DNA from: Trachythela sp. YZ-2020
Taxonomy: Eukaryota; Cnidaria; Anthozoa; Malacalcyonacea; Clavulariidae
Assembly (NCBI GenBank): GCA_016169945.1
Contig: JADLSH010000236.1
Coordinates: 186,001-250,000 of the forward strand
Reading direction: 5' to 3'
DNA length: 64,000 nt
The notes under the pieces are model-generated. The model had not been told where the DNA came from. It was given only the letters and a program-made list of their open reading frames with translations, and did not search any database. Below are positions 9,062-50,614 of the stretch, piece after piece (within the stretch, counting starts at the first letter, position 1; the number at the start of each line of letters is the position of its first letter). The position numbers and the translations under genes were made by a program.

Positions 9062-9506
9062 TCATTGCATTTCCATGGAAACAGTAGCATTCGTGGAGGA
9101 ACAAGCCTGGTTTCCAGTATTGTTGTTGGCGGTCTCGTGATGATGATTTCCTTTTGTCGAGCAAAATGACTTCCATTTACTTCTTGTATCTTTTGACAGG
9201 ACACAATGAAAGATGAAAACCAACAGACCTTGAAGTGAGTTAAAGATACAAAATAGATACTGGAAGACCAATTTAGCATCTTTGATAGCAAGGACACCAA
9301 ACACCCAAGTGAGACCCAGGACCACTAGGATAGCAATACCGCGTCTTGCTTGTGTGAGCCCGCTAGTCTTTCGGTTTGCGGTCACTCTAGTTTCGGAAGT
9401 AAGGAGGGAACGTAAGATCAGGACAAAAGCAATGAAATTGATGAGCAATATGATTAGGACTGGGGCAAGGAAAGCCACTAGGAATGGGAGACGTTGAAGA
9501 CGGCAA
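9062..9506 (-). CDS. Gene A exon 10: TM5-TM7, tail and stop
   Basis: Acceptor TTCATTTAG, phase 2, open to the TGA at 9062. ECL2 Cys (YCRLQ), TM5, TM6 with GLTWVFG and TM7 with FNSLQGLLVFIFHC are present. The cytoplasmic tail is short (about 45 residues, His/Asn/Thr-rich) with no recognised motif. A polyadenylation signal AATAAA lies on this strand at 8993-8998. Confidence 0.95.
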
Positions 9507-12500
9507 CTAAATGAATAAATTAATAGTCCATATTTAATAAAATGAAGCAAATTTATCTATTTCTACGATAATCTCGTCCAAAACCGGTCGCCGATTATGG
9601 GCTGAATATCAGCTGTTTTGCACATTCAATATTTAAGGCCAGTTTTGCAAGATAAACAATCTGGAATTTTTTGAAGAATCTACTAGGAAATTTTATTTAA
9701 TCCAAAACAGAAATCTCTAGTCTTAAGCCTGGTTTCCATGAAATCGTAAATATCGCAATTGTCGTGTCGCAAGAGTCGCAGAAATTGGCTGGTTGCGATT
9801 TCTACGATTGCGATTGGTCCGATTCTTGCGATTGCGCGACTATTGCGATTTAATGGGAACCAGGCTTTAGTGTGTTCACGACTGTGCGCGGAACATACTA
9901 TATAATTATGACTTAGATTAGCCAACTTTCATCGAGTAATGTAAAAAAACGGATATTTACTCGGGAATAATGCAACATTAGCATATATGCATGCTTTGTC
10001 CTCGCGGGATATTTTAGCTTGTCAGTTCATAATAATTAACATGTCTAATGTGATAAGCACCAATGGGTAAATTGGTAAACGTTTTCGAATAAGAGATAAA
10101 ACGGCCAGCTTTACTCTTGAATAATTCTCATCGTGTACGCGAAATTTTCATTTCTCTTAACATTTTTGTCTTATGAAAGTAGAACAATCTATTTAAGAGT
10201 ACATCCATGTACGTGTTTGGGAATATATTCTGTCCGAATGTTCTCATCGATGCTACTACTTTCGGCTTTTAGCTTGGTAGTCATCCAGAGTTAGCCTCCT
10301 CCACAGGCCCGGTTGCGTCATCATGGAAGGTCACACCGCCGGTTAAAAATTCTGCAGCGCCGGCGAAATTATTTTAGCAATTAACCAGCAACCTTCTCAG
10401 ACAATCACGTTAGGGCTTTGAACAGAAATCGTATACAGTATGTATATATTGCATTTATAATTACAAATTGATTAGACATATTTGAGCCTTCTGCAGGGCA
10501 TATTTGCACTAGTTTTAGTTCCCAAATATACTTTTAACGTTTAGAATTGCTTTAAAACTGGCTTCATTCATGTTGACAAATGACGTCAAGCGAAGGGAAC
10601 TGTTACTCCATGTGCATCAGATTTTGTTTACACGACTTGGCAGGCCCTCTAGAAATTGTGACCTCCCCATCTTGCATAGGGGCAAGTTGAGAATGCTATT
10701 AAATTCAGATCAACACGCTTGGCCTGGACACGAGAATAGTTTTTAGTCGTTTAGACTTTACTTACTAATTTTCGTCGCCATATTCTTCATATTCCAAGGC
10801 GGTTGTGACAATAACAACTACTGCTGGTAATCCTAGAAGGTGAACAAACAACATGGAAATACATAAATAAATTTGTATGATGAAACATAAATAAATTATG
10901 GTCAACATTCAGCAATTAAGGTTACAGGACACCCTATAGACCACTTTCATAATTCAGATGAGTTTAAATATTCTTTTATGTGCATTTTGATAAGCCTTAT
11001 TGACCTCGTTAAAATTAATAAATTATTTTCAATTTCATGCACAGAAACGAGGCTGGTAGGCTTATTAATATGCACATAAAAGAATATTTAAACTCGTCTG
11101 AATTATGAAAGTGGTCTATGCGGCTACGTTTACACGCTGCGATTTGTCGGCCTGATTTCAGATGCACGTTAATGATATTTGAAAAATACGTGGCAAACGT
11201 CATCTGGCGACATATCAACTGAAAAAATTCGTCATTAACATTCAGCAAAACCTAAAATCGCGGCCCGATTTCCATTCAGTGCAAAATTTCGCGCGATCGA
11301 CCTTTTGCGATCGTTTTCTTTTGAATTATGAGCCCTCGACCGGACCGTTCCAGTCGAAGGCTCATAATTCAAAAGAAAACGATCGCCAAAGGTCGATCGC
11401 GCGACATTTTGCAGAGAATCGTTACTGCGCGCTTAATATTAGTCCGATTTTTACCAAATGTTGGTACTCCATGCAGAATATCAGAAAGTTGTGAATTCGA
11501 TAACAAATGAAATATTTTATGAATTATTTTAGAAAATTTAAAATCGCGGTACCTTCATGCCGCGGCCTAAAGCCTAGTTCACACGAGTGAGATAAGCATA
11601 AGCAGATCGAAATACAAAAGAAAACTTTCCCTCTAGGGCTTACATTTTACAAAGACAAAGCGGAAAGAATTTTCTTTTGAAATGTATTTTGTTCCGACTT
11701 AGCTTATTCTTAGAGGCTTGTCATGCTTATGCTTGTGCTTATGTCGACGTTTATGTTGCACACTTCACTGCATCCCTTTGTTTTACCTTTTGGCTTAAAT
11801 GCTCTGACTGTTTTAACAGATATTTCTGAAAATATCATAACAGCCAAATAGTTGACTAGTTGTTCTAAAAAAGCGTGATCGGATTTTTCTATTTATTTCG
11901 CCGTTCGTTTGGAATAGCTATTTCTTTGAGGGTTATAATATATTTCATTTGGAAAGAATTGTCCGTAACTCAAAAATACGTTTTGAAGCGGAGATTTTCC
12001 GTTTCTGTTCTTTAAATTTCAAAATAATCCGTTCAAATCGGCCGGAGCATAACCCCATTAGTCTTTTAAAAAAATCAGAAGTCTTCGAAAAAGTTTAAAA
12101 GTTTATATATTACAGCGATTTCGCGGATTTTTCAGTTTCACTCAATGACTTCCACGCACGCGCTATTACGGAACTTTAGATTTGACAACGGCTACGAGAA
12201 CGACTATGACTACGAGATTTTTCCGTAAATATCTGCTAAACAAACTCAAAGTTGTACTCGATTTGGCTCAACTGTTGTTATAATGATGTGCTGTGCCAAA
12301 GAGAGGATGATAACAAGTTTGTATTAGCAGATATTTAACGGGAAAATGTCGTAGTACCTATCAGTTCCCTATCAGTACCACGCTATTACCAAAACCGCGG
12401 ATGCTTTCTCTCACTCTAAAAAACATGTCCTGTTTTCGTGACGAAACATTCAGGAATGCGATTACATTCTTTGCGTTGATATTATAAATTAGCTAATAAT

Positions 12501-15500
12501 AGTTTGACATTTTAACAGTAAAACTCGGTGACGTTTCAAAAACATTTCTTCAAACTTAATCAAATGCTAAAACTACAAAAGAGATTATATATAAACCAAA
12601 AACTTTTTAATTTTGGGCATTTGGCTGAAATTTAACAATTCAAAGACAAAGGTTGTGTTTTGCACTTCGTGAACAGTGATCGAACTGTTTATATTTAACA
12701 ATTAGATTATGAGCTCACGATTTCTATGAGGTGATAGTTGATGAGGGCGAAGCCGGCGATCATCTCAAGGAGATGGCTGTTTCGCTACTCGCTATCTATC
12801 GACAATTAGATAGCGAGTAGCGTAGCCAATCAAATTACAGCATTTGCAATAGTATACTAGTATGATTCTACTAATCAAATTTATTCAAATTATTTGTTGG
12901 AACGTTTTGCGAGCTTTTCAAAGTGGAAGCACGGGAGGAGGACGTTGTCCCATGTCTATTCTGTGACGTTGTTTCTCTGGTTGTTTGTTTACAACTACAA
13001 TTCAATTTAAAATTTTAAAAATAAAGTTACTTAGGATTGTGTCGGAAACAGATTTGTAAGTACATGTACTTTGATATTTGATAGAGCAGTTGCGATCAAA
13101 CGTATTACGTTGTTGAGGATCGTATATATTATGTAAGTAAATCTTTGTTCATTTTTATAGTTGACTTGTTTGTTATGATACAACCACAGGCGGCCAAGGC
13201 AAACAGTATGATGTGTACATTTATACTATATAGTTTATAAAATATAATCATGTAATATTAAGAAATAAACCATAAAATAATACCTGATGATGCCCTGAAC
13301 CACCATCGTTCCTTGCATAACTTACAAGGTGATGATCGGACTTCGAATTTGGACCCAAGTGCGCACCCCTTTTTCATCCAAGAAGAAAACACTACGCAAA
13401 ACAACAATATTGAAGGGAACATTGACGATCAGAAGAAAGGATGGAAAAGAAAACTATGGTTGGAATCTGCCCAGTACAGAAAGTCAAAGTTAAAGATAGA
13501 AATGGAGGTCTTGTGGAAATGTTAGCATTGTTGGGCACAGCCTTCTTTCGAAAAGCGCGGCCAGGAAATTGGGACTAACTGGACCTCGAATTCACCTAAC
13601 AATGAATCTTGCTGGAGAAGAAAAACTTGCAGAAGTTTCTGAAATTCTCGAAGTCACGATAGTTTCATGTGTCGATGAAGGGATTGAAAAGACTGTTCAA
13701 GTCTATGCAGTGAAAAAGCCTTGCAGCAGTGCAAGAACAATCTCAAGAAAATCCATAGAAAAGTATTCTCATCTCCAGTCAATCTCAGAAAAGCTGCATC
13801 TTTCTGGTGGGGTCGTCGATCTCCTTCTCGGGACCGATTTTGCTGACGCCTTTGTCGATACACACGCCATTCCAGGGAAATGTGAAGAGACCATCGCAAA
13901 AATGAATTGTCTCGGATGGTATGTCCTGGGCCAGCTGGATTCGAAAGAAATGAGCAGCTCAGGAATTCAGTCCGTGGACGTCAGTACCGCGAGCATCACG
14001 GAGAATATGAACAGACTCCTCCAACAAGACCTAATTGAAGTTAAACCAACTAGCCTCTGTACCTGCAGTGAAAACGAATTGCGAGAAAATAAGTTTGTTA
14101 AGTCTCTGTCAAAGTCAACCACGTTAGTCAATGTAAGAATTCAAGTTAGAATGCCTTGGAAAGAAATGGGACCTCCGAAGCGCAGCAATTACGACATCGC
14201 TTTGAAACGGATGCAGTCTGCCGAAAGGTCATTCCAGAAAAAGGGGTGCCTCAACGTGGTTGACGAAGAAGTCCAAAAGTTGGTGGATCAGGGTTTTATC
14301 ACCAAAGTTCCACCTGAACAAGAAGACCACGCACAGCCGGAATGGTATTTGCCACTTCAAGCAGTTTTCACCCCAGAAAAAGACTCTTCGATTCGTCCTC
14401 CAAAGGTCACGACGGTCTCTCGTTGAATGATCATCTTGAGAAAGGACCGGACTGTGTTAACCAATTACCGTAGCCTATTCATGTGACGTCCGCAAGGTGT
14501 TCAATCAAATTATGGTGCATCCGGATGACCAAGTTTATCACAGCTTCTTGTGGAGAAGTAAAACGAGTGACCCCCTTACAGCCTACCAGTGGCTCAGATT
14601 AAGTTTCTGAGACAAACCAGCACCAGATATCGCTTCCAACTTCATCAACACACAATTAGCTAATGCGTCCCAAACTGAGTTCCCAGAAGCAGCGAAAGAA
14701 CTCCAGGAGCATACGTATGTCGATGATATTGGTGGTTCCAGAGCCACTTCAGAAGAAGCAAAGCAGATAACTGACAAGATAGATTCTATCCTCGGAAAGG
14801 GGCAATTTCAAATCAAGATGTGGCATTCCAATCGTAAGGAGATCGACCAGTCCGATGGCGAGCAGTTCACAGATCTTCTTGGTCACACATGGGATAAGAA
14901 AGCAGAGAAGTCGTTGAGCCTTCTCGGGCTCTTTCAAAGAGAGATTGTCTAGCCTTTCTAGTTCAAGTCTGGGATCCCATCGGGCTTGCATCCCCGGTCA
15001 CCATGAAGTTCAGAATTGATTTACAAGAAATGTGGAGTTTAGGATTCAATTGGGACGAAATTCTACCAGACGAAGTCCAACGAAGATGGATGGAGAATGT
15101 TCGGTTAATGAATCTGTTCATGTCATTTGAATTTGAATTTGAATTTGATCGGAAGTTGAAACCGGACAATACTGTAGGCGACCCCGAAGTTCATGGATTT
15201 TCAGTTGGAGGTGAGCTGGCCTTTTGAGCAGTTGGAAACTCCTCAACGGCGTCTATCAATGCGTCCCAATTTTGATCAAGCCATTTGTCTCGCCATTAAA
15301 AAGAAAATGTATCCCCCGATTGGAGCTTTTGGGTTGCCTTGCTCTTTCAAGGATGTACGAGACCTGCCAAAAGATATTGGGATTCGCTGGACTCAAAGAC
15401 TACCGAAGAATCTTTTGGGTAGATTCGACAACGTCTTGTCATGGGTCCGAACTCCACCACAAAAGTTCAGACCTTTTGTATCTGCCAGGGTTTCGGAAAT

Positions 15501-18500
15501 TCAAGAGACAATCGGTACAGAAGACTTTCGCTATGTGAGATCGGGGAGCAACCCAGCTAACGCACTTACTCGGGTAATTGAATCTGACCAACTAGCCACT
15601 TGGTTGGAAGGAACACCATTTCTAAAGTTACCGGAAGCCGAGTGGCCCAAATTCCAACAAGACCACGAAAGTTGCAACAAAGAATGCTCGGAAACGACAA
15701 AAGAAAAGAAACCGTTACGTCTTAACCAGATCTCTAAGGGGAACAAGAAACCCATTGACGTAAATGTTTGTTTTGCCCCCGAAGCTGAAGAAAACAAGGA
15801 GAACCCCATCCTCAATCATCTTCTATCAACTTGTTCTTCGTTTTAAAAGTCCGAAGAACATTAGCTTACGTCCTCCGATTTACAAAGAACGCAAGAGGGG
15901 CCAATTCAACAAGAGGGTCCATTACTGTTCAGGAACGTAAAACTTCAGAGACATATCTTTAAAGTGGTGTCAAAATTTCCTGGACCTAACTCGTCTAGAC
16001 AAGAAACTCATCCCAAGAGAAGGAGAGGATGGACTTCAACAAGCTCACGGACGCCTCGAAGATATTAGATCGCTCCCGGTCGAAATGAGGAACCCAATAA
16101 TTTTGCCGCGCAACCATCAACTGGTCAAGTTAATAATAATAATTTAATAATAATTTAATTTTTAGTGCGCAAGTTTCATTCAGATATGCTCACATGCGCA
16201 TAACATTCTAGATATTTACATGAAAGATAAAAATAGTTACGTGTAAGATAATTTAAACCAATTATCCATAATCAGTATAGACTATAAATATTATATGCTA
16301 TTAGTTTCATAAAAATATATATAAATATTATTAATAAAATCACAGTATTATGTCAATAAATATTATAATAAACTTTCCTAAATAAGTGTGTCTTTAAAAG
16401 TTTTTTAAAACTTCCAACAGAATCAGCTTGTTGGATGTGTGAAGGTAAATCATTCCACAAATTAGGTGCTGCACATCCAAACGAGCGATCACCAAGAGTC
16501 GGTAACGTTTTGATGATAGTCTTCTGGAGCAAGAGTTTCGAATTCGATCTAATGCTGTAAGATGATGGAGGTTTGATACTTATAAGTTCAGAAATATAGT
16601 TAGGTGCCAGCCCATGAAGTGCTTTAAAAACAATTAGTAGAACTTTAAAGTCTATTCGAAACTTAACTGGAAGCCAATGTAAATCCTTCAGAGTTGGAGT
16701 TATATGATCGAACGGAGATACATTACATATTAATCTCGCTGCTGCATTTTGCACACGTTGGAGCTTGTTAAGCTGAGTCGAAGGCAAACCATAGTAAAGA
16801 CTGTTACAATAATCTAAACGGCTTGTCACAAATGAATTCATTAATATTTGAGCGGTTTCATGTGTCAGAAACTTTCTTATCCTCCTGATGTTAAATAGAT
16901 GGAAAAATGCCGCCTTACAGCATTTGTTCACGTTGGTATCACATTTCATTTGGGAATCAAACCAAAATCCTAGGTCTTTAGCTTCATTTGGACACATATA
17001 GAACAAACAGAAGTGGGCCAAGACAAGATTCTTGGGGCACGCCATTTTTGAGATCAAAACGCTTAGATGTACCACCATTTACAGAAATGAATTGCGAACG
17101 GTTAGAAAGATAAGAGGTGAACCATTTTAGTACTTGGTCTTTGATGCCAAAACTGGAGTTCAATCGGTCGAGCATTATGTGATGGTCAACAGTGTCAAAT
17201 GCAGCACTCAAATCCAAGATTACAAGTAAGGTAACACGCTGATGGTTCATGTTCATTAGGATATCATGCTTAACACGTAGTAAGGCTGTCTCCGTACTAT
17301 GATACTTTCGGTATGCCGATTGTGCCTTGGGGTAGAGTTGGTATAAATTCAAGTAGTGATTTGTCTGATTGAAGACAGCACGTTCTGTTAATTTAGACAT
17401 AAATGTAAGGTTACTGATAGGGCGAAGATTCTCAAAGACCACTTCTGTTTTTGAAGTTGTGGCTGGACTAATGCTTGCTTCCATTCATCACAAAAAAAAC
17501 ACCAGATTGTAGTGATAAATTAATCATTCTGGTAATCACAGGGAGGAGAATATCTTGACATTTTAGGACCAGTGAAGTGGGCATTTGGTCTAAAGAGCAC
17601 GATTTTTTACTTGATTTGGATATCAAATCTTTGACTTTTTCTTCATTTAAGATATTAAAGGAATCAAATCACACGATTTGAGAGGAAGCTACAAATCCAG
17701 GGGATTATTGAACGGCGCACGCCTTATACAACTACAAGAGCGAATTAAGACTCATTCAATTTAAAATGTTAAAAATAAACTTACTTAGGATTGTGTCGGA
17801 AACAGATTTGTAAGTACATGTACTTTGATATTTGATAGAGCAGTTGCAATCAAACTTACTGCGTTGTTTAGGATCGTATATATTATGTAAATAAATCTTT
17901 GTTCAATTTTGTAGTTGAATTGTTGTTATGATACAACTGGTACAGAAATAAAGATCATTCCTGAGTATTTTTGTGTTCTTCATTTAGTTCATTATAAAAG
18001 TAGCACTGCTAACGCGTAGGCGCGAGACAGGTTGTAACCTTAGATGTCATAACGTCGGCATGCAATTTTGGTAGGAGCCTCAAAAACGACGGGTTTGTCG
18101 GAAATTTAGGAGCCTTTGCCCACCAGAAACTTTCCACCACTGACTTTTTTAGCATTATGGCAGTTGAAATTTTCAGCAGCACGTTATAACGTTGCCGTAA
18201 TTGGCAAAATAATTTCAACGCTAAAATAGTGTTTAAAATGAGTAGCGTTTTACTGTACAATATGACGATTTTTATTGGCCAGATTTTGTTTTAATTTCTA
18301 CTGATTAATTGTCACATACCCCATCCAGCGACAAAACACTTGATCATAAAGTAAGAATGGTGTGTTGGCAGAATTTTGACAAAACAAAGATACATATTAT
18401 ATGCTTCTATAGCCATCCATATAAACACAGCTAAGATAAAGTAATGTAGAGCTATTGCTGCAACACGACACGAGGTAGTAGAGGAAGTCTTGGATCTCTC

Positions 18501-21500
18501 AGCAGCCACAATGAACACAACTAATGCCAGAGATAAGGCTATGCAGAAGTTGAGCAAGATCTGGGTTGGGGCTTTCGTTCGTAACTCTCTAAATTTGAAA
18601 GGAAATGAAGATCATTTGTAACGTTTTGTTAAAATATATCAATGCAGTATACATTCAAATTGTATTAATGGATGATGGCGAATAGCAATTTTCGTTTCGA
18701 TGCATCCGGTATTTTCTTAATATAATCTGTGACTCCGGCATGTTGGTGATGTTATTTATGTTGACTGGCATCTCAACCTTTAAATTTTACCTTTTGTTTT
18801 CATTGTCAATAGCAAAAATTGATTTATGATATTGACTTAACAATAATCCGTAATCCTAAATTCCTACCCAAATAATCCATAATCTCGTTTTTCATGCCTC
18901 AATAATCCGTAATCCTACTCAAAAAAGCCAAATAATCCATAATCCTAAAACCCTAACAGGACCTCGTATATGCAATCTCTGAGTACCCTTTAGTTGTTAT
19001 TAATCAAACATATAAAGTAAAATATATTGATGATTGCAAACGACATACGTTTTATTCGTGAACAGTGCGACATGAATTACAGCCATGTTATGCATAATAA
19101 CACGTGATGGTGAAGAAAAATAGCATGTCCTGCGTTGATATAATTATTAAGCTATTCAGAAGTAAGACTTGAAAATTATTTAGTGTTTTTCCGTAAATTT
19201 GTTTTACAAAACATGACTCTGTGATATAAATTGGGTTGTAAGTTGAAATATTTATTCGAGGGTGTACATCATGCTGTATTTAAGGATTAAAGCACTCTGT
19301 GGGTGCATTATCGGGATTTAAAAGCACGAGTTCACGAACAAGGAACGAGAGTTTAATAGGCTGCACGAGACGCAGTCGAGTGCAGTATTAAACCGCTTCG
19401 ACACAAAAGCGCTAGTCCGAATTGGAATTTTGTCAGATCCGATGAGCCAACGAGAGAACAAAGGGTTTGAGATTGTTACAAGCACTGTTCAAAGTGCTAG
19501 TACGCGCGCTTAATTTGAGTTCTGTTAGTCGGAATATATACGACTTATACGAGGATTAAAAATTCACCAGCCTACCTACAACTGCAAGCATTACTGTCCA
19601 GTCTGTACTATCTCAAAGGATGTAAATTGTTAATTGTGAAATGTGAAGTGATTTGGCTTACGATCACTGGTAAGTTCACCGTCTACTTCATGAATGTTCG
19701 CCGTCTACTTTTCTTTGTTTAAGAAAAAAACTAAGTCCTCTATCAATTATATATTTATTCGAACTCCTGAATGTGTTGTTTCTTGCGCATTTTTAATTTA
19801 TACGATGTTTTATAATTCTCAGAATTCCGTCAAATCGCCTCCCAAAACGCAAGAAATAGCATTTCAGGGACTCTAAAGGGACTCATTTCATGCCCCCCGA
19901 CCCCCCTAGAGGTCTCGCGTCTACGACGTTCACCATACACATATTACAAGGGGCGCCAAATTTCCAACTGGCCTCCCCTGGCGAACACAAGCCAGCACGC
20001 CACTGTAATGCACGAACAAAGAGTGCTTTAAACGTTTTAATATTCAATTTGAGTAAACGCTTTGGCGGTATTTTTTTATTTATGAATTATGAGCAAAAAC
20101 ATCCCATAAACTTTGGTGAACAAACTTTGTTGTTTTGAATCTGTCTGCCGACTTACGAATATATTTTCAACCGGCTTCGCCACTCATTCACAACTTATAT
20201 TCCGTAAATTCGTAAAATAAACTAAATAAACAATACATGTTTACGTTTAAATACGGAATTGTTGTAGAAATTTGGCCACTTCGTCGTTTTGGGATTGTCT
20301 TCGGTTTAAAATAAACGAAATCTTATAAACTTTTCCATTCGTGAATTCGGGCGCCATCTTGCCGTGCTGATATTAGCCTGCGTAGCAGACGGTCATCCCG
20401 CGGAACTAGTCCTAAAAGGCAGGCAAGGTGGAAAGACCGTCTGCAAGGTTTGGCAGTGTATTTTATATGTCCGCCATAAAGGGGGCGGCATCAAATACAC
20501 TGCCAAACCTTGCAGAATGTCTTTCCCCTCCTCAGCCTTGCCCTTTTTGGGTGTTTCGCCGCAGGACCGTCTGCCTCGCAGGCTATGCTGATATAAACTA
20601 TAACGGCACGGCCGTGCGTTGTTGCTATATAAAATGCACACACGTGGTACAAATTCACCAATAAGAACGCGAGTTTACGAAAATTGAATATTAAACTGTT
20701 TTATACATGCATGTTTTTCGAATATTTGCACAGCTGTGTGCAGTGTGAGCAGTACCCTCATTCTCACTGGGGTTAGACATTGCACTATTTTTAGCAATAA
20801 TAAATAAATAAACAATAAATTACATTTGAACTTACTTGAACAAGAAAATCGTGATCATGGTTAAAACAAGTCCACCCAAAGATATAACGCAGCCAATATA
20901 ACTTATAATACTCAGTGCTTCCTCATGATCACCATCGATATGATCCATGATATAAACATCCTACAATGGAAATTATTTATTTGAATGTATTTGGAAAATT
21001 TTCCAGTATGTTGTGAATTGAAATCTTGTGGTACAACACCCTTACCGTTAATATAGCAAAGTTAGTAAGATGAGAACAATGACAAGTAACAATTCCTTCC
21101 TTTGTCCCGTTGTAAGAACAGCCAGTTTGTAACCAGTCACCGACACCATTGTTTAACGAGAAATCCCAAAATACACACGCAGTTTTTTCGTGTATTCCAT
21201 TTTTTATCGGTCGATATGTTGTTACAATCGGATCTTGCAAGTTAGTTAATTTTTGTCCTTTAATAGATCCAGATATCACCCAACTATTCAACTTATTAAC
21301 GGTGTCTCCAGTAGTTTCTTTAATTTGGGACTGAAACAATGATACCTTGTTGTAAATGACAAAAGCGATTCGTTGGTTTTGAGCTTTACTGTTAATGCCC
21401 AAATTGACAAACAACGATTTTGGCATTGTTAACGAAATTTGAGAATTCATAGGCTGAACACTAAAATCATTGTTGTAAACAGATAAATTGATTTTTTCGC

Positions 21501-24500
21501 TTCCTTGACTATCACTCACAGATGCTGCACTGGCGCCTTGGAATCTACTTTGGTTGACGTCTCGTGAATATACAGAGATGTTTTGTTCATTTTGTTGTAC
21601 ATTTCCACCAGGATTTATAACAACATTTAGAAGGTATTCTTCCACTGCTGATAAAACTCTGAAACATTGGTATATAAAGACATCAACAAAGTTTCAAAAC
21701 GGGTATGTTACATATAAGTATTAAATTATGTGGGAAACTGGGTTTTTTAAAAAAAAGAGCAAACACGTCTATTTATTCCGCAAAGCGTTTAATCCATAAG
21801 CCCGGACCTTTATCAGTTTAAATAATACTGAAGATCCAGGCTAGAACGGATAGAACGCTTATCGCCATGCATGCAAACCCAAATAGAATTTATTTTGTAG
21901 CCAAGCTGGCAAAACCTGTGAGGAGGAGAGAAAAGCTTCGCCAACATGGAATAGATCACATGAGAACATTCGTAGGTCAATGTCAGGCAAAGAACGGACG
22001 ACCTACCCAATCCTGCAAAACTATTTGTGACACTCTACTATATTTAAATTGCATGTGATGTGCCCCATTCTCTACAACCACGTTTCCCCATATTGTATTG
22101 ATGTACAACACTGAACAGGAAGGGGTAAGGGAGAGGATTTTGAAAATTTCCCCATAACCTATACATTTCTTTTAGAAGTTTACAGTCAATATTAACCAGA
22201 TTCCAGGATTGTAGAACTATAAGAGTAGATATAATTTATTTTCTTTCGTTAAATCCCCCTAACCATATTTAATTTAAACACAAGAGGCGAGGACGTGTAC
22301 AACACCATTATTATAGGTCTATTGTACATCACTTGACTTGTACCTTGCAGACGTATTTTCAGTTTTCTGACTTCGAGAAAGAATGCCAGGATCGTAATTT
22401 AAGAAGTTGTCAACAGCCTTAATAACATTCGTACCGGTCTAGAAAGAGAAATGAGGATTTACTGTTCTATTGTCATTGTATTGATTTGCATGCTCAGTTT
22501 AATTAATACAGAAACGCTTGATGTATATTCTTTACCTTGTCATTACTGTGAGAGAGTATGTGGGTTAGTGAAAAAGGGGATTTGGCACACGTTTAAGGGA
22601 TCGAGTAAACTACGGTTTCATTTTTAGACAGACTGCGTGTGTCACACTAGCAAAATAAATCTAGCGTGGAAAATAAATCTAAATGATCATGCTTTGAATA
22701 AGGACGACGGACGTTATCTTTCACAAAAGTACTTCCACGTTGTTGGCTAGTGATATCGTCCCATACATGCGCCGGCTGGGCATTCATTGGAAGTAAAGTT
22801 GGAACTTTAAATCAACCTTGGCATTAGACTGAAGTATCGAAATGTTTGGTCGTAATTGCAGCTTTCTTCTTCTAATTGCTAATCCCAAACGTTTTCACAC
22901 TTTTGCGTTTAAAACTACTTGGGGCGGTTGAAGATATAATTTGTAAAATTGATCTGATCAGAAAAAGTAAATGCAGCGACACATTTGAAACAATTTTAGC
23001 TTCAATAATGTCCCCAGGAAAATATTTTATGTCACTTTTATGTTAACTACTTGCGTCGTCGAAGGAGCGGGGGATATGTTTGGGGGGATTTCGCGATCAC
23101 GCTAGATCAAAGTAAAACGACTCTATCATGAACTTAGTGAGGATTTATAATTATATTGTTTTAATATTCACCTCATTCAATGCGTTTCTTTGTCCAACGA
23201 TATTTTCCAAAATTAAGACAGTCAACAAGACATCTTCTTCTCCAAAATTCTCGGGATAATTTGTCAAGTTCACCAGTCGGAGACTCTCATGAAGTGTCGA
23301 TGTATTATTCTCTTTTATATCCTAAAACAACATTAAGCAATATGAAAACAATGCATTTCGGGACTTTCATTTTTGGTAATCTGTACGTATACCAATTAAA
23401 CCACGCAACTGCAACTTGGTACTCAGTGAGAGGACGGATTCACAAGATAGACGGCCGGCCAAGCTTGAAAAAAGTGTCTAGAAAACACTGTCGATGGCAT
23501 TTTTTGTTACAAGCATGAAACTACGCAAAATGTCTTAGGATAGTGTTTACTTTGAGGGTGAGAGTGGTTGCCAACAACTTCAAATTTTATTTATGTGCTA
23601 AAATTTGAAGGTTATCTCTAAAACATTTCGAAGGATGGGATTTTTGTCGAATGCCGTATTTTATATCAGTGTTTTATTTTAATTGGCTGACTATCTAATT
23701 AACATTTGTAAAGCTCGGGTAATCTTCTTTCGTATAATTCAAAATGATATGCTAATAAGAAACATGGCGCAAATACATCAAAACACGACCTTTCAAAAAG
23801 AAGCCACAACAATATGTTTTTGTTGTGTTACAGACAGGCATCAATCACGTATGTTTAGATTACATACGAATCCGTATTACACGCCCGGTTGCCACCCGTG
23901 TAACACAATATATTTCTGTTGAGCCAGTCGAGTTTTGGCATGTAAATGGTTGAAAAGCAGCATGTTGACGCAAACGCATAGTTTCACTACAACACATAGA
24001 CGTTCAAAATCGGTAAATATTCGAAATTAAACGTAATAATTTACGAATTTAAGCCTTTGGGTAACCACTTGTCTTAATAAATCCATCCTTATTTTGAAAC
24101 TCGCCTCCATAGAGGTATTTTAACAAGTGTAATAGTAATACCATTTTTCTCATTAGCATGTCACTTTGAGTTATGACAATTAAGAAAAGGAGAAATTTGC
24201 ACATGTTAATTAGGTAGTGAACCAATTACAATAAATCCATGATATCGAAAATTGCTTTTAAATGGTTCCCATCTATCGAAATGTCGTTATAAAAACCTTC
24301 CAATTTCGGTACATAAATAGAAAAATTACGGAAAGCAACCACTTTCACCGTCAAAGTGAACACACTCCGATGACATTTAGTGTGGTTTCTTGCTTGTAAC
24401 AAAAAATGCCATCGACAGTCACTTTTTTCGAGGCTGGCTGGCCGTCTAAGAGGCCTTGCGTACGAAGTTCTCGCAGCTATACTTTTGATTGTTTAAGACA

Positions 24501-27500
24501 TTCGTAACGTTAACTTTACAGAAAACAGGTGTGATTGTTCAGCAAATACTTTCAGAACTAGTATTATCAGTTTTCTTTTAATATCACTCAGCATTTCTCA
24601 AACAAATACCAAGTCAGCAAGGGCAGAAGAAGTTTTTACAGCGTACGTGTGTCTCCCCATGGACGTTTTGAATGCAAATAATTTTAGAACAAAGCGATAA
24701 AAAGCTTGTCCCAACAGCAAATGTTTAGAAAAATGTATGTTTACTTGATTCCATTGATTTCGAATTACAAATCGAGGGCTTTATTTATGTTAACATTGCA
24801 CAGCAATTTTAGTATTTTCCAAAAGTAATCAATAGAAATCAGAACATGACATGTGACATCGTATGACGCCAGAGCCAAACTGTAACCAAAAACTATGACT
24901 GGCGAAAAAGATTGAACCAATCAGAAACGAGTGTCGAGTAAGACTGGTGAAAATGGTATTAAGACTGAAAATGATTGAATTCAAAAATCAGTTTCAACCT
25001 CACCGATTGATGATCCACGTTTTCATCCACGTGGTTATATTTATTATATTTATATATATTAACTTTCTAGAATACTATTGATTCATTCTATACCTGGTAG
25101 AGAATGGACAAACTGTCTGTAATTTCTGAGTCATTGTACACTCGGTATTTGCATTGTGAAGTGTCAGGTTCAAGCCAATATGGACTTTGACAAGCAGTAT
25201 CGTTGCATTGACAGTATCGACTCGCTCTAAACCCGAATGAAGAATTACCAGTTGGTTTTAGTTCTAAATTTCCACCATCGTCATTGTGTGAGTAATGGTT
25301 GTTTTCTCCATAAGGACAGTTTGTAAATATCGAACGGTTGCCAGCCGTTACGTTCCAAAAGAATATTCCTTGTGTAAAATTTTCTCCAGTTGTTTCTTCT
25401 GGACATGCTCCTGAAATAATGTAACAAAGTCAGTTGGAATGAGTTTCAGTACAAAGAATTTCAATAGCGAATATTTTGTTTGATCGAACACAAGTGTCCA
25501 ATATCGGAAAATTGAATCGTTTGATAACATAAACCCCTCGTCTTTTGAACTTTGTTCATTTGTTCTTTTCGCACAAGTGTTTTTCGCTTCTAATGCTCGT
25601 CTGGTGCTTTACAATTTAACTGAGTGGTCACTCTAGGTATAAGTTGTTACGCCCCCAACAAAATAAAAGCTTAATGTAATCATAGGTCTCCGATCATACA
25701 CCATTTGTGCCGTTGAGATCATAAACTTGCATGTTGCATTTCAAAACAACGGTTCAATTTCCATATTAACAACCTGATAAAAAATACAATCCTAATCCTA
25801 ACTCCAATCCTAACCTTAATCCTAACCCTAATCCTTGTGACGTAATTTCAGGATAGTAATATGGAAAGTCACCCACAATATCAATCTCCCCTACCCGTTC
25901 ATTTCTAACGCAAATCTTGTAAATGCAACTCCAACAAAAAAAGCAGAGAAGCATGAGGTTAGAACGCACCGTACGTAGGAGCTTGTGTACTGTGCACTGA
26001 TCTGAAAATATAGTACCGTGGTACTGTGAGGTGACCCAAACTCGTCTAAAGGCCGTTTTCCACTTCAAACGTATCGTAACGTACCGTAGCATTTTCTTTT
26101 GTGTCGAAGTCATTAGTTCTACCCGAGTGCTCAGGAAAAAAAGAAATACGCTACGTTTCGCTACGATAGGGGTGCTGTGGAAAACAGCCTTAATAGTTCT
26201 GTGCGGGTTTACAAATCATGTGCGCGCAGCGGTTCTCAGTTTAAGCATTTAATATTCACATTTGTTCAGACATTTTACGCCTAATACACGGTTCTTTAAT
26301 CCCAAAGCCACGCGCAAAGCGCATGAGCGAGAGTACTAGTTCCTCTCACGACGTCTAAAGTTCATCAAGCATCGCGGGCGCGTGGTTCTGTTCCATGGGT
26401 GTCATGGTTGGACCTCTCACTGATCTCAAAATATGGCGGATTGTCTGGAGTGGAATGAGTGAGATTTAAGAATGTAACGAAGCCTTCAAAAGTCCTAAAT
26501 CACATACATCAAACGACACTTCTTCACAAGAAAAAAAGATATGAGAAAATAGTTTGAAGAAAATGGCACATTAAATGTTAAGAAGAAATAGTTAAATATC
26601 ACGCAAGACCAAAGTCAAGTCACGACAAGAAGCATCAGGCCAACGACAAGATAATTTGTTTTACTGTTTATGTCTTTGCCGGTTTCAAAAATGTTGGTTA
26701 TACCATAGGCAGCCCAATGGCTATGCTGGTTTAATGATGGACTACAACATTCAAATTTTTAATAAAACTATTGTTACCTTGTTGAAAATGACGAAAATAT
26801 GATAAATTTTCTTGACAATAATGCAATTCTTCAGTTCTCGTTGCCTGTGACGTCCAACGAACGTCACTGCATAGTAATGAGTGTAAACAGTGTATAGTTA
26901 TTCCTATAATTGGCTCACCAAAGTTTTAACTCCCCAAGCTATTGCACAATTTCTGCCAGGTATTGCGCAATTTCTGCCAGGTATTGCATAATTCTGCCAT
27001 TTACCAAGAGTTGTGGTCGGGACGCTAGGTGGAAACAGCTGCTCACTTTACTTTAAATTTCTTTTAATACAGGCGTCAACCACCGAATGACTTCCAAAGC
27101 AAGAGAGGCGCATATTTTAGAAAATATGATTTTATGGAAAATTGATTATATTCAACAATGTTCAAATGTAGAAACGGTTTCAAAATAACCATACCTGTGC
27201 AAGTAAATCCGTTTCCAGTATAGCCTGTCTTACATTGACAAGTGTAAGACCCAATAGTGTTTGTACAGTCACCATTCGCACCACAACCATGAGTCCCGAT
27301 TGCGCATTCATCAATATCTAGAAAATAGTGAACAAATTGTTCCGTTTTTGAGAGTTATGTTGGACAGGATAAGAAATATAGCATTGAATACAGATGAGTG
27401 AAGTATAGGGTTAAAACGATAAATATAGATGAAGGGAGAGTATAGTAGAGTGGGCAGGGGCCACGGAACTGGGCACATGTGCCCCCCCCCCCCACTTTTT

Positions 27501-30271: not shown

Positions 30272-30410
30272 ATTTCTAAAATTGGGAAAATATCACAAAA
30301 TTAAATGACTGGTTATCTAGTTTAAGATTAAGGGAACCATCTCATCCTAAAATAATTCAATAAAACTTCTGTAAATGATATCATGGAAATTATTCTTAAT
30401 GCTGTATCAA

Positions 30411-39185: not shown

Positions 39186-39265
39186 TAAGCCTGCGTTCCG
39201 CAGCGGTAAAAGGACGGAGCATGCGCGAGAGGAGAGACACGGCGTGCGAGGAAGAAACGGTCGCA

Positions 39266-39476: not shown

Positions 39477-39589
39477 GAAAACCGGAAGAAACAGTGTTTT
39501 ACCAACACACAAATATGTTTTTGTAATTTAATTTTGTTATTAAAAGGAGTTTAAACCTGTTTTTTTCGGATATATTTACTGGCATCCCA

Positions 39590-42426: not shown

Positions 42427-42480
42427 TTGTCCTAGTTTAGTCCTCTGTATGTTGGAATTATGTAAATATAATTTTATATA

Positions 42481-43864: not shown

Positions 43865-44828
43865 AACGTTTGTATTTTTTAGATTTTACGAATACAAATT
43901 TAGTTAAATTTAACTGTCTCGTGTTAGAAATTACTCTTTCATCTTACAAAATACTTAAAAATTCCCTTGGCAAATGAAGGATTTAAACACGGAACGATCA
44001 CCATAATTACATATTCTTTTATCCAAAAAGTTAAAATGCATAATAAGATTACAGAATCGAATATTATACTATAAAAAATGCATGAGTGGTTTTAAGACAG
44101 CGGTTTTGTGACCTAGACAAGTTACGACTGCCACAGTGTAATCGGTATCCTATACTTTATAAATGTGCAAATTATTTCCGTATTTTATACCACCCCCTTT
44201 ATAATCACCATTTCGCTAAAACCTCCAACCGGATTATAAAATTTTCCAACCATCCTCCTCACATTTCTGATCTTGGCACCTAAAACCATAATATGACTAT
44301 TCTAGCGCAGAGATTTAGACATAACTTTTCAAACGAGTCCGTACGCCTGTGCATGTTTAGCGCGGTGGTGGTTTTTGTTATACCTTAGTAGTGCGTGAAT
44401 CATAATCATATTTAGAAAATTTAGAAATATGAAAATACAAATTCATGATGCAGCCACTGATCTGAAAAGTAGACTGGATAGTGCAACCCATTGTTCTCGG
44501 ATGTAGAATGTCAAAAGCCAGTTAAACATTGCTAGAAAATAGCAAGCGGTCATTACCAAGGCATTAAATGAGGGAGTAAGTGTCCGTTTCTTGTTACAAC
44601 ATCTTCAAACTTTAAAAACACCGGATACCTACAGTACATGTTTTCTACAGTACAATCTAAACCAAACAAATTTTTATTATTATACGTTACAAAGGTTTAT
44701 TATACGTTACAAAGGTTATTATCAGTTTGTCCCTTAGTAATAGCTTATTTCCAGCTACTTTTTCTACCCAATTTGGACACTTAATTAATCCAGTTTTATT
44801 TCAAATCAGTACATGCGACCTGGTTATA
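43865..44828. other. Gene B downstream region
   Basis: No coding frame. 44455-44620 is a diverged relative of the 2-kb unit (33510-33650): GACTGGATAG(T/C)GCA, CCAG(T/A)TAAACATTG and CATCTT(C/T)... words in the same order. A polyadenylation signal AATAAA on the minus strand at 44795-44800 lies about 30 bases after the gene B stop. Confidence 0.6.
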
Positions 44829-45343
44829 CTAAGGCAATTCCTCGTATATGGACTCTTTAGAAACCTCATTCCCAGGCCCATTAGACATAACAGTGACATA
44901 ACCGTCGGCCGCATCATATACAGGTTTGTTGCTCGAGCTCAATGAAGCATATCGCTGCTCATTTTCATTTCCTCTTTGCAGTACAGCATAATCCGCTCCC
45001 ACATCACCGGAGCCATCTTGTTTGTTTTTGTGTTTTAAACTCTGATAATTTGCATCAATGGGAACTCTCTTGGAACTGTCAAGTTGTGCATATTCTGCTG
45101 GTTCTTCATAACCACTTTCAGAATACGGTACCTGTGGCAGTCTTCTGTCACCTACATAAGCAGCATTTTGAATTTCACCAATGTCTCGTTCTTTCTCCCT
45201 CTCTGGCATTCTTCGATAGAGAAAGCAAGCAACAATCAAGATTACCGTTACCAAGACAACCACCGCTGCCACCACGGCTCCAATAATGACACCAATATTA
45301 CTGTTTGATGAGGAAGATGGATTGGATGAACCTGGGTCGAGCG
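44829..45343 (-). CDS. Gene B exon 4: stem, TM and tyrosine-rich tail
   Basis: Acceptor TTATCAAG, phase 1 (a second AG 12 bases on, at 45333-45332, is also in phase and would drop four residues). [22 protein letters not shown] and onward to FLY, followed by a basic stop-transfer RR. Tail tyrosine motifs: YVGD, YSES, YEEP, YAQL, YQSL, YAVL, YASL, YDAA, YVTV, YEEL. The stop is right after ELP. Confidence 0.95.
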
Positions 45344-48300
45344 CTTGATAAATCAAAATAAAATCGTCGTTATATTATTTATAAAGATGATGATCCCGGC
45401 CACACGGATCGAAAATTTTGTTGTGTCGTCATACTTCGCGCACGAATATTTGACACCCCAACAACATCCTTATCCCTAACCCTAAATATATGTTCGTTCG
45501 CGAAACCTGAAGATATAATCCAAATAAATCGAGTAAATACACATGGAATATATAAAACAAATCCCGAAATCATGCATCTTCAAAAATCCAAGATACCGAT
45601 TGAAGTCATGACAAAATATTTTAAGTTGATATTTTATCAGTTGACTATAATTAATTGTCTAATGTATACGTTCTTTCAAGATGCAAGTTTTAGGAATTTG
45701 TATCGGTATACTTTAAATAAACATGGTGTTTCAATTAACATAAATAATGAATGATTTTCATGACAGTACAAGCTGTAAATACTCAAAGTCCAAAGGGGAA
45801 CTGACTTCCAACGTTCGAAAAACTTGCACAATTGGTAGAGCGATGGGCATGCATGCCAAACGTTGTGGACAACCCCCCTCTGGAACTCAGAACTCCTTGG
45901 CACCTAAATACAGCCAGTATTTGCAAAGCAAACAACTTGCTGACTCCGTCGATCGGGAGAAAACTTTTAAGAGAATACAACTTTAGAGAGAAAATCAATT
46001 AACTTTATATTTCACAAAATTCATTAATATGTCGTGCAATTGTTAAATTTTCAATTAAAACCAACTGGCAATAACAATGAAATTTGTTCCATCTTGAATA
46101 CGAATATGCATGGTTGGATATGCGTGACATCAAAACCATATCTCGTCTATTTATTTAGACTCAATAATAAAACAATATAGCGAATAGAAGCATGTTTTGG
46201 TGACAAAAATTTGAAAGTTGAGAAAATTGTGCAATGTTCCCATATTTCCTTTAAGCTACATTTTGTACTTTTCTAACTCTCAAGGTTTCACACAACACAG
46301 CCCAAGCAACAACCTTAAAACTTTTATTTCGATTACATAAACATGTAAAACGAAACAACTACTTAGACGAAAGTTATAAAGACTACTGACCTGTGCACTT
46401 AGTTTTACCATTTCCCGTAAAACCAGGTTTACAGGAACATGTATAGGAGCCAATAGTATTTTGACACGTGGCATCTGAATGACAAACTGCGGTACTACAT
46501 TCATCATAATCTGGAGTAAAATATTTAATAAATAATGTAAAGGTTTATTAATATTACGTTAAATTATAAACAATTTATATACTAAAATAAAAGAATCAAA
46601 AATTTCAAAATCTTGCGTTTTTCATATTCTTGCTATTTGGAACACCGTTAATGTAGAAACCATCTCCCATGTTTGGTTAGTTCCAAAAGTACAGCAGAAA
46701 AGCCAATAGTCGCCCGGCATTTTACATAGTCCAGTTGTGCTGAGAGCAGTTTTAGAGCGCTGCATCGGAATCCACTGAGACCCGCCAGATTCAATTCCTG
46801 CCAGAGGACCTAAGTTGCATTTTTTTCGAGTTATCTGCAAAAACCTTCTACTACTATTAGTCCTAACGAGATGCCGAAAAAAAAAATCTACCCATATTTT
46901 TTTTTAATAAATTTTGTAAAATTTTATCAGTATTATGTTAAATAATGAAGCATTGGTAAACTTACCAGCGCAAGCTATTCCATTTCCAACATATCCAGCT
47001 TTACAAGTACACGTGTAGGAGCCAATAGTATTTTGACACGTAGCATCAGAATGACAAGGTGATTGTTGAGCACATTCATCAACGTCTAGGATCAACACTT
47101 TTTCATTAGCAACCTATTATAGTGAAGTGCCAGGGGAGTGGTCGAACATCTCATTTCATAAAAATCATTGATTAAATACTCAACCTTATATTATGTACTG
47201 TTTAATAAACTCGCAGGAGTGTTTTATTAGGTTTACAACCACGAGCGCGCAGCGCGAGTGGTATTAGACCTAATAAAACACGTACTGCGAGTTTATTAAA
47301 CAGCTTCTATATAAAGAATACTATTAAATGAAGATGAGTTTTATCATGCAGGTATAAAGCCACTTCACGTGACATGCATATTATGGTTGACATGATTTGC
47401 CAAAAAGCTTATGAATTATTGAGTTTTTGAAATATATTTCTATATACATACATGCATTGCATGAAACACCGCGTGTAACGGCAAATTGTTATTTTAGATA
47501 ACCGAAAATAGAAGTAGAAAGCTCTACCACCGTGTATTGAGCACTCTTTTTATTACAGAAAAAAACAATAAAAAAACATATATATATGTAAAATATATAT
47601 ATATACCGGGTGAGGCAAAAGTACGAGTGTTTGATTTAGTATAACTTAAAATAGGCCGTTTTTAGCTAATTCTCGACAGTTCCAAAAGTGTTTAGTCAAG
47701 TTTAAACGCAGCTATCTCAGTCGATATTGCATGAAAATGCACATGGCATGTATCAAAGTTTAAGTTAGACATCGCTGAATGCAAACAAACTTGTTTAAGT
47801 GTAATAGCTCTTTTAGTTTTTAAGTTATACTAAATCAAACAGTCGTACTCTTTCTTGCCCCACCCGGTATATATATATATATATATATAGGCACTCCACT
47901 GATCGATATCTAACAATTAATAAAGTGTTAGATGACTCCCATATATAAATTTCCTGGATGAGGTCATGGTAACTAATGTCTGTCTTAGTATTGGTACACG
48001 CATTCACCAGAAAAATTAATTGTTATAGCACAAGATTAAAGATAAATTACGATTAGGGCCCAAGTCCAATAATACTTTATCTCTTTTAGAAAATTTGCTA
48101 TAAAAAAAATTCAGTAACACAAAACAAGACAGCACAAGAAGGAAAAAATCTGGTAAAAATTGTGGGTGACTTTAATTACGTATTACTATTCCGAAATGAC
48201 GTCACAAGGAATAATTAAGACCAAGGCAATAGGGACTGCCCGCTAATGTACACCTTAAATGTAAACATAAAAAACTAGGTGTATTAAGTTTTCATGCAGT

Positions 48301-50614
48301 AATCTAAGAGGACTGTTGGAAGAATCATCTTGACTGTTGCAATTGCTTTTCGCGATTCTACCCTACTTTTCAACAGGGCCTATCTTGCTAGCTGACAAAA
48401 CTGAAACAACGATTTGGAACTGCATAACATCTGGTGATATTTTACTGACAACTGCAAATTACCCTAATTTTTATCTGACAACTGACATCCGAAGATCAAC
48501 TTGAACTACAATTTTTATCACAAAAACATACCACAATTGACAGTTGGCGCATCTTCCACAGCCATGACAATCTGTAGCAGGGTAAGGTTTGTGAATGAAT
48601 TACATAACTTTGTCCCCCAAACATCATCCCATGTTATCCTACTGCTCAACAGCGAGCTAATAGAATTGCCATACAGACACTGTATCTCAACCAACTTAAA
48701 ACCAGTTGCCATTTTTATTGAATCTGATAATAATACATCATCAAGTTCTTCCAAACTCAAACCCCTCTGGGATAAAAATTCTTCAAGGCTTACTGTCTCA
48801 AACAGGATCTTTTTCATCATCGTTTTTGCGATAGTATTGTTGTAAAATCTGTGATAGTCTCTGAAATTGCTAGACTCGAAGGAATCATTGGCCTTGTTAA
48901 ACAAACAAGAGGTAATACGATCTATGTATACGTTATTAAAAGAACTTGGTTTAGTTGTTTCAATTGTCTGAAAGTTGTCTGTTTGTGAAGAAATTGAAAC
49001 ACTGTCTGGACTAGTTTGAAGGTCGTACGAGAATGCCTGCATGACTTGCTTGAAAGATTGTTGTATCACAGCGTCGATAATCTCAGACCACTTGGAAGAA
49101 GGCAAAGCAGCTAGACCAGAGTCATTTGGAAAGTGCTCAGTGTATCCAATCAAGTACGTGATATCATGAACATCATAACGATACGATATAGTTGTCAGTA
49201 ACCATTGATGGACTTCAGTAATGGTTGTTTCTTCTGTGACAGTTTGTCCTGAAGCTTCGAACAATGTTTTGGGTGTAAAACCATATGTGGTTAATGTATC
49301 ATTGAACATTGGTGCATAGTGTTTGGAAATATACAGTAACTTATTTAATGAAATATAGTTAGCTATTATTTGAGGAATAGATAAATTTAATATATCATCT
49401 TGTGTGAGACCATTATTATCCCTGATAATCTCTCGAAGACGTGGTGTATCAATAATTATTCCATCTGTGTAATTTAGTTCCAAAATATCAGCTATTTCAA
49501 TCCAATCTATGCCAGTAACGCGAGTAAAAATCGTTAACACGCTAAGTTCTAAAGGATTTTCAATCTCAGAACTTATTGTTTCGACATGTCGAACAGAACT
49601 AGATAGAACTAAAGCCACGGGACAACTAAAATCTTCCAAAATCGATTTTGAGATGTTATACATGGTTCTGGTCAAAGATATCACACCATTGCAAGAGGCA
49701 TAGCTCTTTAAGGGAATGAACTGTAAGGCATATAATTGTGCACTGTTCCAATCATATAATATTTCCAAATCTCTGATAGACATATTTGTCGCAAAGTTGA
49801 TGTGGCGGTGTAAAGGGGAACTAGTCCAATTGTTCAAATTTCCAGACCCATCATCATCATCATCGCCTATTACATACGTCTCTATTTCATCATGTTCAAA
49901 CACGTACTTATTGCCAAGAATGTTCTGATAGGGCAAAATCAACTGTGAATCTAACTGTGCTAAATTGTAATCAAGTAAGGTAGAATCATTACTTCTCACC
50001 AGTTCAGCAAACTCTGAACGATTTACGACCAATATATCAGCTCTACACTGGATAGCATACCAGGCTATTTGAGGAAGGAACAGTTTCCATTCAGGTAATG
50101 TAACATTAAATGATGAAATACCAAGCTCTCTCTCTATGGATGACATTGTGAAACAGAAATGCAGTTCCAATGTTGTTACAACGGCTTCGTGCAAACGTCC
50201 TAGAGTAATTGCAGGCTGAGTCTGACCGTTCAATTCTTTCCTGCTTTTACCACTATGATATTCTATATCAGATATATTTAACGCGTGGCAATACGATCCA
50301 CACATGTGTACATTCAACTGGTCTGTTTTGAGAAGAGATCTTTGGTATAACCTATTCGCGTCTGAAATGATGCTGTGAACACTTCTATTGTAGATTTCAG
50401 ATACAGAAATGTTCGTTGCTTGCCAAACATCCCAGGCAGTTACTTGATAGAAGAATTGATTTCGTTCAGGAGGGTTATAAAACGACGATGTTTTATCAAT
50501 AGGTTGAGGTAATGCTTTCAGTGGTGTGATGAACAAAGGTATTCGTACGCCTGATACGTACGGAAGGACAACAAGATTAATAATTCCACATACGCACAAA
50601 TATTGTAACCACAT
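44829..50614 (-). CDS. Gene B: single-pass receptor, gene A-like ectodomain, EGF repeats, ITAM/ITIM-like tail
   Basis: Four exons, 50614-48532, 47085-46966, 46510-46391 and 45343-44829, give 2838 nt = 945 codons plus stop, all joined in phase 1. Order: signal peptide (about 1-22), a 670-residue ectodomain whose first 240 residues match gene A, two EGF repeats (695-774), a Ser/Asn-rich stem, one TM helix (about 791-817) and a 128-residue cytoplasmic tail with ten tyrosines. Five fit YxxL (Tyr859, 874, 893, 906, 941) and one YxxV (923). Pairs 859/874 and 893/906 have 11 and 9 residues between them, within ITAM spacing; 941 is SIYEEL, an ITIM consensus. A membrane receptor signalling through SH2 proteins after tyrosine phosphorylation is the natural inference. 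Ligand and cell type are unknown. Confidence 0.92.
46391..46510 (-). CDS. Gene B exon 3: calcium-binding EGF repeat
   Basis: A 120-nt phase 1-1 exon, acceptor TACTCCAG and donor [26 protein letters not shown] then GSYTCSC. It shares most bases with exon 2, including TCAAAATACTATTGGCTCCTA, so one is a recent duplicate of the other. Confidence 0.93.
46622..46840 (-). other. Possible dead exon between gene B exons 2 and 3
   Basis: After a good acceptor TTTTTGCAG (near 46834) a 70-codon frame begins and reads [15 protein letters not shown], resembling the start of an F5/8 type C (discoidin) domain, then [11 protein letters not shown]. The frame is phase 0 while its neighbours need phase 1, and it ends in a stop without a clear donor, so it is not part of the gene B model. 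Confidence 0.3.
46966..47085 (-). CDS. Gene B exon 2: calcium-binding EGF repeat
   Basis: A 120-nt phase 1-1 exon, acceptor ATCCTAG and donor [27 protein letters not shown] then GSYTCTC and GNGIAC. Confidence 0.95.
47199..47302. repeat. 104-bp palindrome
   Basis: Arms TGTTTAATAAACTCGCAG(G) pair for about 48 bp with a GCGCGCAGCGCG centre, in gene B intron 1. Confidence 0.8.
47606..47867. mobile_element. 262-bp TA-flanked MITE related to 31129-32304
   Basis: Ends CCGGGTGAGGCAAAAGTACG and, inverted, CCGGGTGGGGCAAGAAAG; both continue with TGTTTGATTTAGTATAACTT, giving about 50-bp inverted repeats. TA on both sides. The words CCGGGTG, AGTA(C/T)G and TGTTTGATTTA are also in the ends of the larger element at 31129-32304, so the two are of one family. 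Gene B intron 1. Confidence 0.85.
48532..50614 (-). CDS. Gene B exon 1: signal peptide and large novel ectodomain
   Basis: ATG at 50612-50614, donor G|GTATGT at 48531-48526, phase 1; 694 codons in a single exon. Residues 1-22 are a signal peptide. Residues 23-245 align with gene A exon 1 ([57 protein letters not shown]). An acidic DDDDDGSG linker follows near 257. The remaining 430 residues are helical, with several segments of the type ELxxL...YNxxL that may be degenerate copies of the same fold. No known domain was recognised. Confidence 0.92.

Follow-up and report, generated by a model that had tools for sequence, protein, structure and literature searches.

Two genes that lie in tandem on the minus strand of an octocoral contig raise the question of whether one extracellular module has been coupled to two different signalling outputs. 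The stretch analysed (the window) comprises 64,000 nt of Trachythela sp. YZ-2020 (contig JADLSH010000236.1, positions 186,001 to 250,000; C96:186001-250000 in our numbering), and the genome searched amounts to 578 Mb. Genes A and B were both located, 14.6 kb apart (30271 to 44829). A first-pass annotation had described an adhesion G protein-coupled receptor (GPCR; gene A) and a single-pass receptor with tyrosine motifs (gene B), carrying a duplicated ectodomain and acting like paired receptors that see one ligand and signal differently. The two membrane parts are as described: the 3' half of gene A encodes a secretin-type seven-transmembrane (7TM) domain (PF00002, E 5.9e-48, profile positions 3-250 of 250) with a GPS motif directly before the first transmembrane (TM) helix (PF01825, E 3.2e-14), and a transmembrane helix followed by YxxL pairs was read in the last exon of gene B. 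We concluded that the locus is probably a lineage-specific chimera with a decaying front, beside an intact gene B, and not a conserved pair with one ligand and two outputs.

The N-terminal domains of genes A and B are homologous. In a whole-genome search that gave 13 matches, gene A exon 1 matched the 719-aa exon frame of gene B with 32% identity (query residues 35-262, E 9.4e-23), and tblastn gave 30% identity over 237 aa (E 6e-27); both values are far above chance. The landmarks DVWQ, FCF(N/T)M and RAD(Q/I)L were found in both genes. AlphaFold2 modelled the 215 residues of gene A with a pLDDT of 95.6 and a pTM of 0.89, and the 672-residue mature ectodomain of gene B with 89.8 and 0.74, respectively; the helix order over domain 1 is identical in the two models (order compared without superposition). 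Pfam returned no family above cut-off in the exon-1 frames of either gene, and the PDB gave no clear structural match for domain 1. The homology proposed in the first-pass annotation is confirmed, but the part in common does not stand as a 215-residue domain in gene B: it is the first third of an all-helical ectodomain of ~700 aa encoded by a single exon, and gene A keeps the first third only. Nor do the genes share a phase-1 exon junction as had been supposed. The junction of gene B lies ~470 residues further on, where the exon closes with ...APTVNC (48532); on C351, the intact copy related to gene A splices at the equivalent site. Alignment by hhalign of residues 114-223 with about 441-590 (E 1.4e-6) suggests that the ectodomain contains an internal repeat.

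A local duplication is not supported as the origin of gene A. Its front has 92% DNA identity to a full-length open copy on C351 with a native phase-1 donor and alignable intron and EGF exons, and only ~30% protein identity to gene B. When the C351 copy, together with the DNA downstream of it, was aligned to the window by blastn, identity was 91.9% in exon 1 (29493-30281), 76.5% in the intron (29173-29502), 83.8% in the EGF1 zone (27839-28049) and 89.6% in the EGF2 zone (27026-27454). At 29493-29502 the window lacks 1,374 bp of C351 (5494988-5496361), a stretch that carries the remaining two thirds of the exon with its native donor (GTG/GTAAGT) and the beginning of the intron. A frameshift is found just before this gap, near 29540, where C351 GMTTSQWQSQTVAYY corresponds to WNDHFSVAISNYGILCPLY and a stop in the gene A frame. 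Gene A has also lost a Cys present in 19/19 outside proteins and a Leu present in 18/19. A front that is truncated, frameshifted and deprived of its native donor argues against a working pair. With a frameshift and 1,374 bp missing, the donor included, the gene A ectodomain is most likely a remnant in decay. In this reading, the 5' end of another family member (exon 1, EGF1 and EGF2; nearest C351) was copied fairly recently and stands before an open adhesion GPCR, which probably works without this ectodomain, from other 5' exons.

The GPS and 7TM exons are open and joined in frame; GAIN subdomain B (PF22261, E 0.047) stayed under the cut-off. Among 29 matches of the GPS exon there are 11 close paralogues at 75-85% identity (five on C118, three on C2, one each on C271 and C256, and C96:145403); the adhesion-GPCR part of gene A belongs to a separate expansion. 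C118, C271 and C256, which hold 7 of these 11 nearest paralogues, showed no ectodomain match among the best candidates, which alone were scored; this also speaks against a working pair, as does the incompleteness of all three GPCR-adjacent ectodomain pieces seen (window, C2 and the D. gigantea model P0057). No EGF match at E <0.6 was found in the ~4.6 kb before the Cys-rich exon of one C118 and one C271 copy. The two nearest GPCR matches came from Paramuricea clavata (P0045, partial) and Dendronephthya gigantea (P0046, 70%). The front of P0046 consists of a signal peptide (by eye), Calx-beta and EGFs; its Calx-beta and last EGF gave no window match at E 0.01 by tblastn. The ratio of nonsynonymous to synonymous substitution (dN/dS) of the GPS exon was 0.25 between the window and the C2 copy.

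The join of the two blocks is bounded by the end of the C351 match (27026) and the end of the good C271 match (25570, or 26458 if a further short match of 107 columns is counted), and two dispersed repeats lie in this zone, at about 26696-26914 and 26044-26193. Both the repeats and the close copying of the C351 5' end would fit a stricter version of the proposed history, in which exon 1 and the EGF block landed upstream of the GPCR as a duplicated fragment and were never part of the GPCR gene. The fragment is on the same strand and in phase, and a similar arrangement occurs at C2 and in the D. gigantea model P0057, which count against this version; we rate it at somewhat less than an even chance.

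Several observations weigh against a recent and decaying chimera. A-type ectodomain pieces (of the gene A type) also stand upstream of GPCRs at C2 and in P0057, so the ectodomain-GPCR link may be old. At C2, the Cys-rich and GPS exons have seven EGF exons (by eye) right before them; three ectodomain pieces with two TGA codons lie about 20 kb upstream in the same orientation. In P0057, a single model brings together an A-type ectodomain part of 46 aa, 11 EGFs and a 7tm_2 domain; it is the best outside support for the first-pass idea. An ancestral octocoral receptor with A-type ectodomain, EGF array and GPCR may be postulated, of which the window, C2 and P0057 would be decayed descendants and C351 a relative with a different 3' part. 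This is compatible with the decay part of our reading, but we consider it rather doubtful. P0057 is a prediction that begins inside the ectodomain, skips the ectodomain end and has no GPS match, and 7 kb of C2 between the ectodomain pieces and the EGF exons are unread. Furthermore, dS between the gene A piece and C351 (0.053) is lower than dS between the window GPCR and its C118, C271 and C256 paralogues (0.10-0.12), for which no ectodomain was reported. The lower value fits a later joining better, although the counts are small.

The other contrary points concern the retained gene A piece and its splicing. Among 13 phase-1 GTs from the gene A ATG to the lesion, the best by consensus is 29568 (CAC/GTAAGA), which corresponds to residue 234 of the first-pass gene A model, and this donor and the native C351 donor each match 7/9 consensus positions. 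Cutting exon 1 at 29568 leaves a chain through EGF1, EGF2 and the Cys-rich exon that is in phase and free of stops. What remains of the ectodomain is predicted with confidence to fold on its own, and the frameshift is close to the linker that follows this fold. Polarising the substitutions against 19 outside proteins places 13 on gene A and 12 on C351 (1 undecided), an even balance, and C351 has also changed at one site common to 19/19 outside proteins; gene A is therefore not evolving faster. All this might be expected if gene A were a living chimera, in which a cryptic donor replaced the lost one and gave a receptor of domain 1, EGF1, EGF2, Cys-rich, GAIN and 7TM parts with G-protein signalling. 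Since the cryptic donor is as consensus-like as the native one, we raised the weight of this explanation and slightly lowered that of the decaying chimera, but it is still unlikely: the letters of the donor are unchanged and coding (Arg-Lys) in the intact C351 exon, the conserved Cys and Leu are lost, dN/dS is above 1 (see below), and the arrangement is recent and seen at one locus.

In the selection tests, the gene A piece compared with C351 over 224 codons gave a dS of 0.053 (7.7 synonymous changes), a dN of 0.062 and a ratio of 1.17. Five comparisons of other long-open copies, four at full length (three of which involve one set of three copies) and the fifth over 603 codons, gave dN/dS of 0.47-0.96. 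These values are also high and not independent of each other, which again weakens the case for decay; rapid evolution is general in this ectodomain family, and the difference from gene A is modest. The substitution rate gives no sign of decay, whereas the lost Cys and the two lesions point to decay. For the GPS exon, dN/dS was 0.57-0.71 between the window and the C118, C271 and C256 copies and 0.36-0.42 among these three, which leaves it doubtful whether the GPCR itself is under full constraint. It is quite improbable, in our estimate, that gene A is a newborn receptor, for which a segmental copy would have put the ligand-binding first domain of the ITAM-type family (immunoreceptor tyrosine-based activation motif) before an adhesion GPCR, a deletion would have trimmed it near the domain border, and a donor in the Arg-Lys codons would have taken over. 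If this were true, one recognition module would have been switched from a kinase-type to a G-protein output.

Beside this probable chimeric locus with a decaying front, gene B is intact and encodes a single-pass receptor with two ITAM-like motifs. The tail contains two YxxL/I-x6-12-YxxL/I pairs; at least one pair is expected by chance in 2.3% of shuffled tails, and at least two were found in 0 of 20,000 shuffles. Ligand binding most likely falls to the gene B ectodomain, and the tail would be acted on by Src/Syk-type kinases and SH2 proteins.

A search for further copies revealed at least 12 loci of the ectodomain family in the genome (the whole-genome search scored best candidates only, so that locus counts are lower bounds). 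Open frames of 719-778 aa are present at eight loci (five on C351, C96:25483, C155:154353 and gene B), the C189 copy has a 603-aa frame, and three copies are broken: gene A, C2 (three pieces, 2 TGA) and C155:197755 (1 TAA). The gene B ectodomain matched all 10 outside proteins listed at 44-74% identity. The A-type C351 copy matched 34 proteins, 31 of which cover at least 85% of the query. Named species among these matches are P. clavata and D. gigantea, in 2/34 for the C351 query and 0/10 for gene B. A 1,070-aa metagenome protein (P0044) is a distant ectodomain relative (21%, E 2e-9) in which an LxxLY...C motif occurs at least twice; this hints at a wider family. Upstream of the start codon of the C351 copy (L007), a dispersed repeat present at many sites covers the initial ~42 residues of the stop-to-stop frame, and the match stops just short of the start codon.

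The family members differ in stalks and tails. Downstream of the C351 relative of gene A, 77 cbEGF-like motifs occur in 60.6 kb on the gene strand and none on the opposite strand; a vWA exon lies in this region and no GPCR match was found there. The A-type ectodomain gene with cbEGF-like array and vWA exon was followed over C351:5438065-5498687 (~60 kb), short of its 3' end. Five copies (L002-L006) have Calx-beta exons downstream of them (one exon tested each, 5/5 above cut-off). Relatives of the gene B tail adjoin both C155 copies and the C189 copy. Two more stand at C351:5765415 and 5888959, on the strand of two ectodomain exons that lie 50 and 33 kb upstream of them, and the second has a Calx-beta exon immediately before it; each of these C351 tail exons would form one gene with its upstream ectodomain exon. 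The core YxxL-x11-YQSL and the C-terminal S(I/L)YEELP are common to the five other tail exons (two on C155, one on C189, two on C351). Of these five, the two C351 tails have the second ITAM-like pair as well; it was not seen in the exons read on C155 and C189. Ahead of its membrane helix, the broken C155 copy has a long NSKSNTTPSP repeat stalk (L025, 5002-5600).

We concluded that one ectodomain family is combined in this genome with differing stalks and ends, namely an ITAM-like tail, an EGF array with vWA, and Calx-beta exons. To this extent the proposal of one duplicated ectodomain on different outputs stands, A-type pieces also being found before GPCRs in the window, at C2 and in P0057; a local pair with two working outputs is not supported. 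The ectodomain family is uncharacterised and is the real novelty of the locus, rather than the receptor pair: the ITAM-like tail is found on the gene B ectodomain and apparently on five other copies, with EGF, Calx-beta and vWA stalks elsewhere. To our knowledge, self/non-self and immune receptors of octocorals are poorly known. A multigene family with high dN/dS in recent copies and ITAM-like tails makes its members candidate recognition receptors in octocorals.

The features are listed in Table 1. Elsewhere in the window, a minus-strand frame at 1913-2998 is weakly similar to papillomavirus E1 and parvovirus NS1 helicases, under Pfam cut-offs, and is possibly an old viral or transposon helicase. 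Reverse-transcriptase- or retroelement-like frames were noted by eye at 13500-15846 (+), 16353-17484 (-), 40534-42426 (+) and 61164-62681 (-), the first two within the intron that separates the TM2-3 and TM4 exons of the GPCR.

Table 1. Features of the gene A and gene B region, in window coordinates.
Feature	Position	Strand	Evidence or remarks
Gene B exon 1: signal peptide and whole ~672-aa mature ectodomain	48532..50614	-	Open frame; phase-1 donor after ...APTVNC; 10 outside proteins at 44-74%; AlphaFold2 pLDDT 89.8
Gene B EGF exon 1, phase 1-1	46966..47085	-	PF07645 E 2e-11, PF12947 E 7e-13; splice sites
Gene B EGF exon 2, phase 1-1	46391..46510	-	tblastn cross-matches; splice sites
Gene B last exon: Ser-rich stalk, transmembrane helix, 128-aa tail	44829..45343	-	YAQL-x11-YQSL, YAVL-x9-YASL, C-terminal SIYEEL
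Gene A exon 1 piece: first third of A-type ectodomain exon, ATG 30271	29493..30281	-	91.9% DNA identity to C351:5496362-5497162
Gene A exon 1 lesions: frameshift after FETQSF and junction of 1,374-bp absence	29493..29545	-	C351 comparison
Phase-1 GT (CAC/GTAAGA), gene A donor of the first-pass annotation	29563..29571	-	Coding letters in intact C351 exon; 7/9 consensus
EGF1 exon, A-type block	27908..28018	-	83.8% DNA identity to C351 over 27839-28049; 74% to EGF1 of P0057
EGF2 exon, A-type block	27195..27317	-	89.6% DNA identity to C351 over 27026-27454
Join zone of C351-like and GPCR-like blocks	25570..27026		Ends of C351 and C271 matches; two dispersed repeats
GPCR Cys-rich exon (HRM-like by eye; Pfam did not confirm)	25094..25410	-	12 genome matches at 73-100%; 62% to Paramuricea P0045
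GPCR exon, Cys-rich/GPS interval (match limits only)	23172..23333	-	tblastn of P0045/P0046
GPCR exon, Cys-rich/GPS interval (match limits only)	22334..22438	-	tblastn of P0045/P0046
GPCR exon with GPS motif	21046..21658	-	PF01825; 11 paralogues at 75-85%
GPCR TM1 exon	20836..20960	-	tblastn/splice modelling
GPCR TM2-3 exon	18320..18588	-	PF00002
GPCR TM4 exon	10766..10832	-	tblastn/splice modelling
GPCR TM5-7 exon and tail to stop	9062..9506	-	PF00002

Vertebrate paired receptors such as CD300A/C are likewise neighbouring genes with related ectodomains and different ends. Closely similar, intact ectodomains would be expected on both members of such a pair, whereas those of genes A and B share ~30% identity, that of gene A is truncated and frameshifted, and its nearest relative is at another locus; genes A and B are unlikely to be such a pair. 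With adhesion GPCRs (class B2; GAIN/GPS and 7tm_2) the 3' half of gene A shares the GPS motif (PF01825) and the 7tm_2 domain (PF00002), and its nearest named relatives are annotated as adhesion GPCR L4-, G6- and G7-like; it differs from them in the broken A-type ectodomain in front, which P0046 does not have. Single-pass receptors bearing ITAMs include Draper/CED-1/MEGF10 and the cnidarian Alr, and gene B resembles them in its EGFs outside the membrane, its single transmembrane helix and the tandem YxxL pairs of its tail. Gene B differs from such receptors in its ectodomain, which has no Pfam family above cut-off; the Pfam scan of the whole exon-1 frame listed no EMI domain at E up to 1, and NPxY is absent from the tail as read by eye, which sets gene B apart from Draper/CED-1/MEGF10. 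D. gigantea LOC114518684 (P0031) has an A-type ectodomain, unlike gene B, in a model that begins inside the domain; like gene B, it has two EGFs, a transmembrane helix and a tail with the YxxL-x11-YxxL core, the YxxL-x11 core being present twice, with YQGL.

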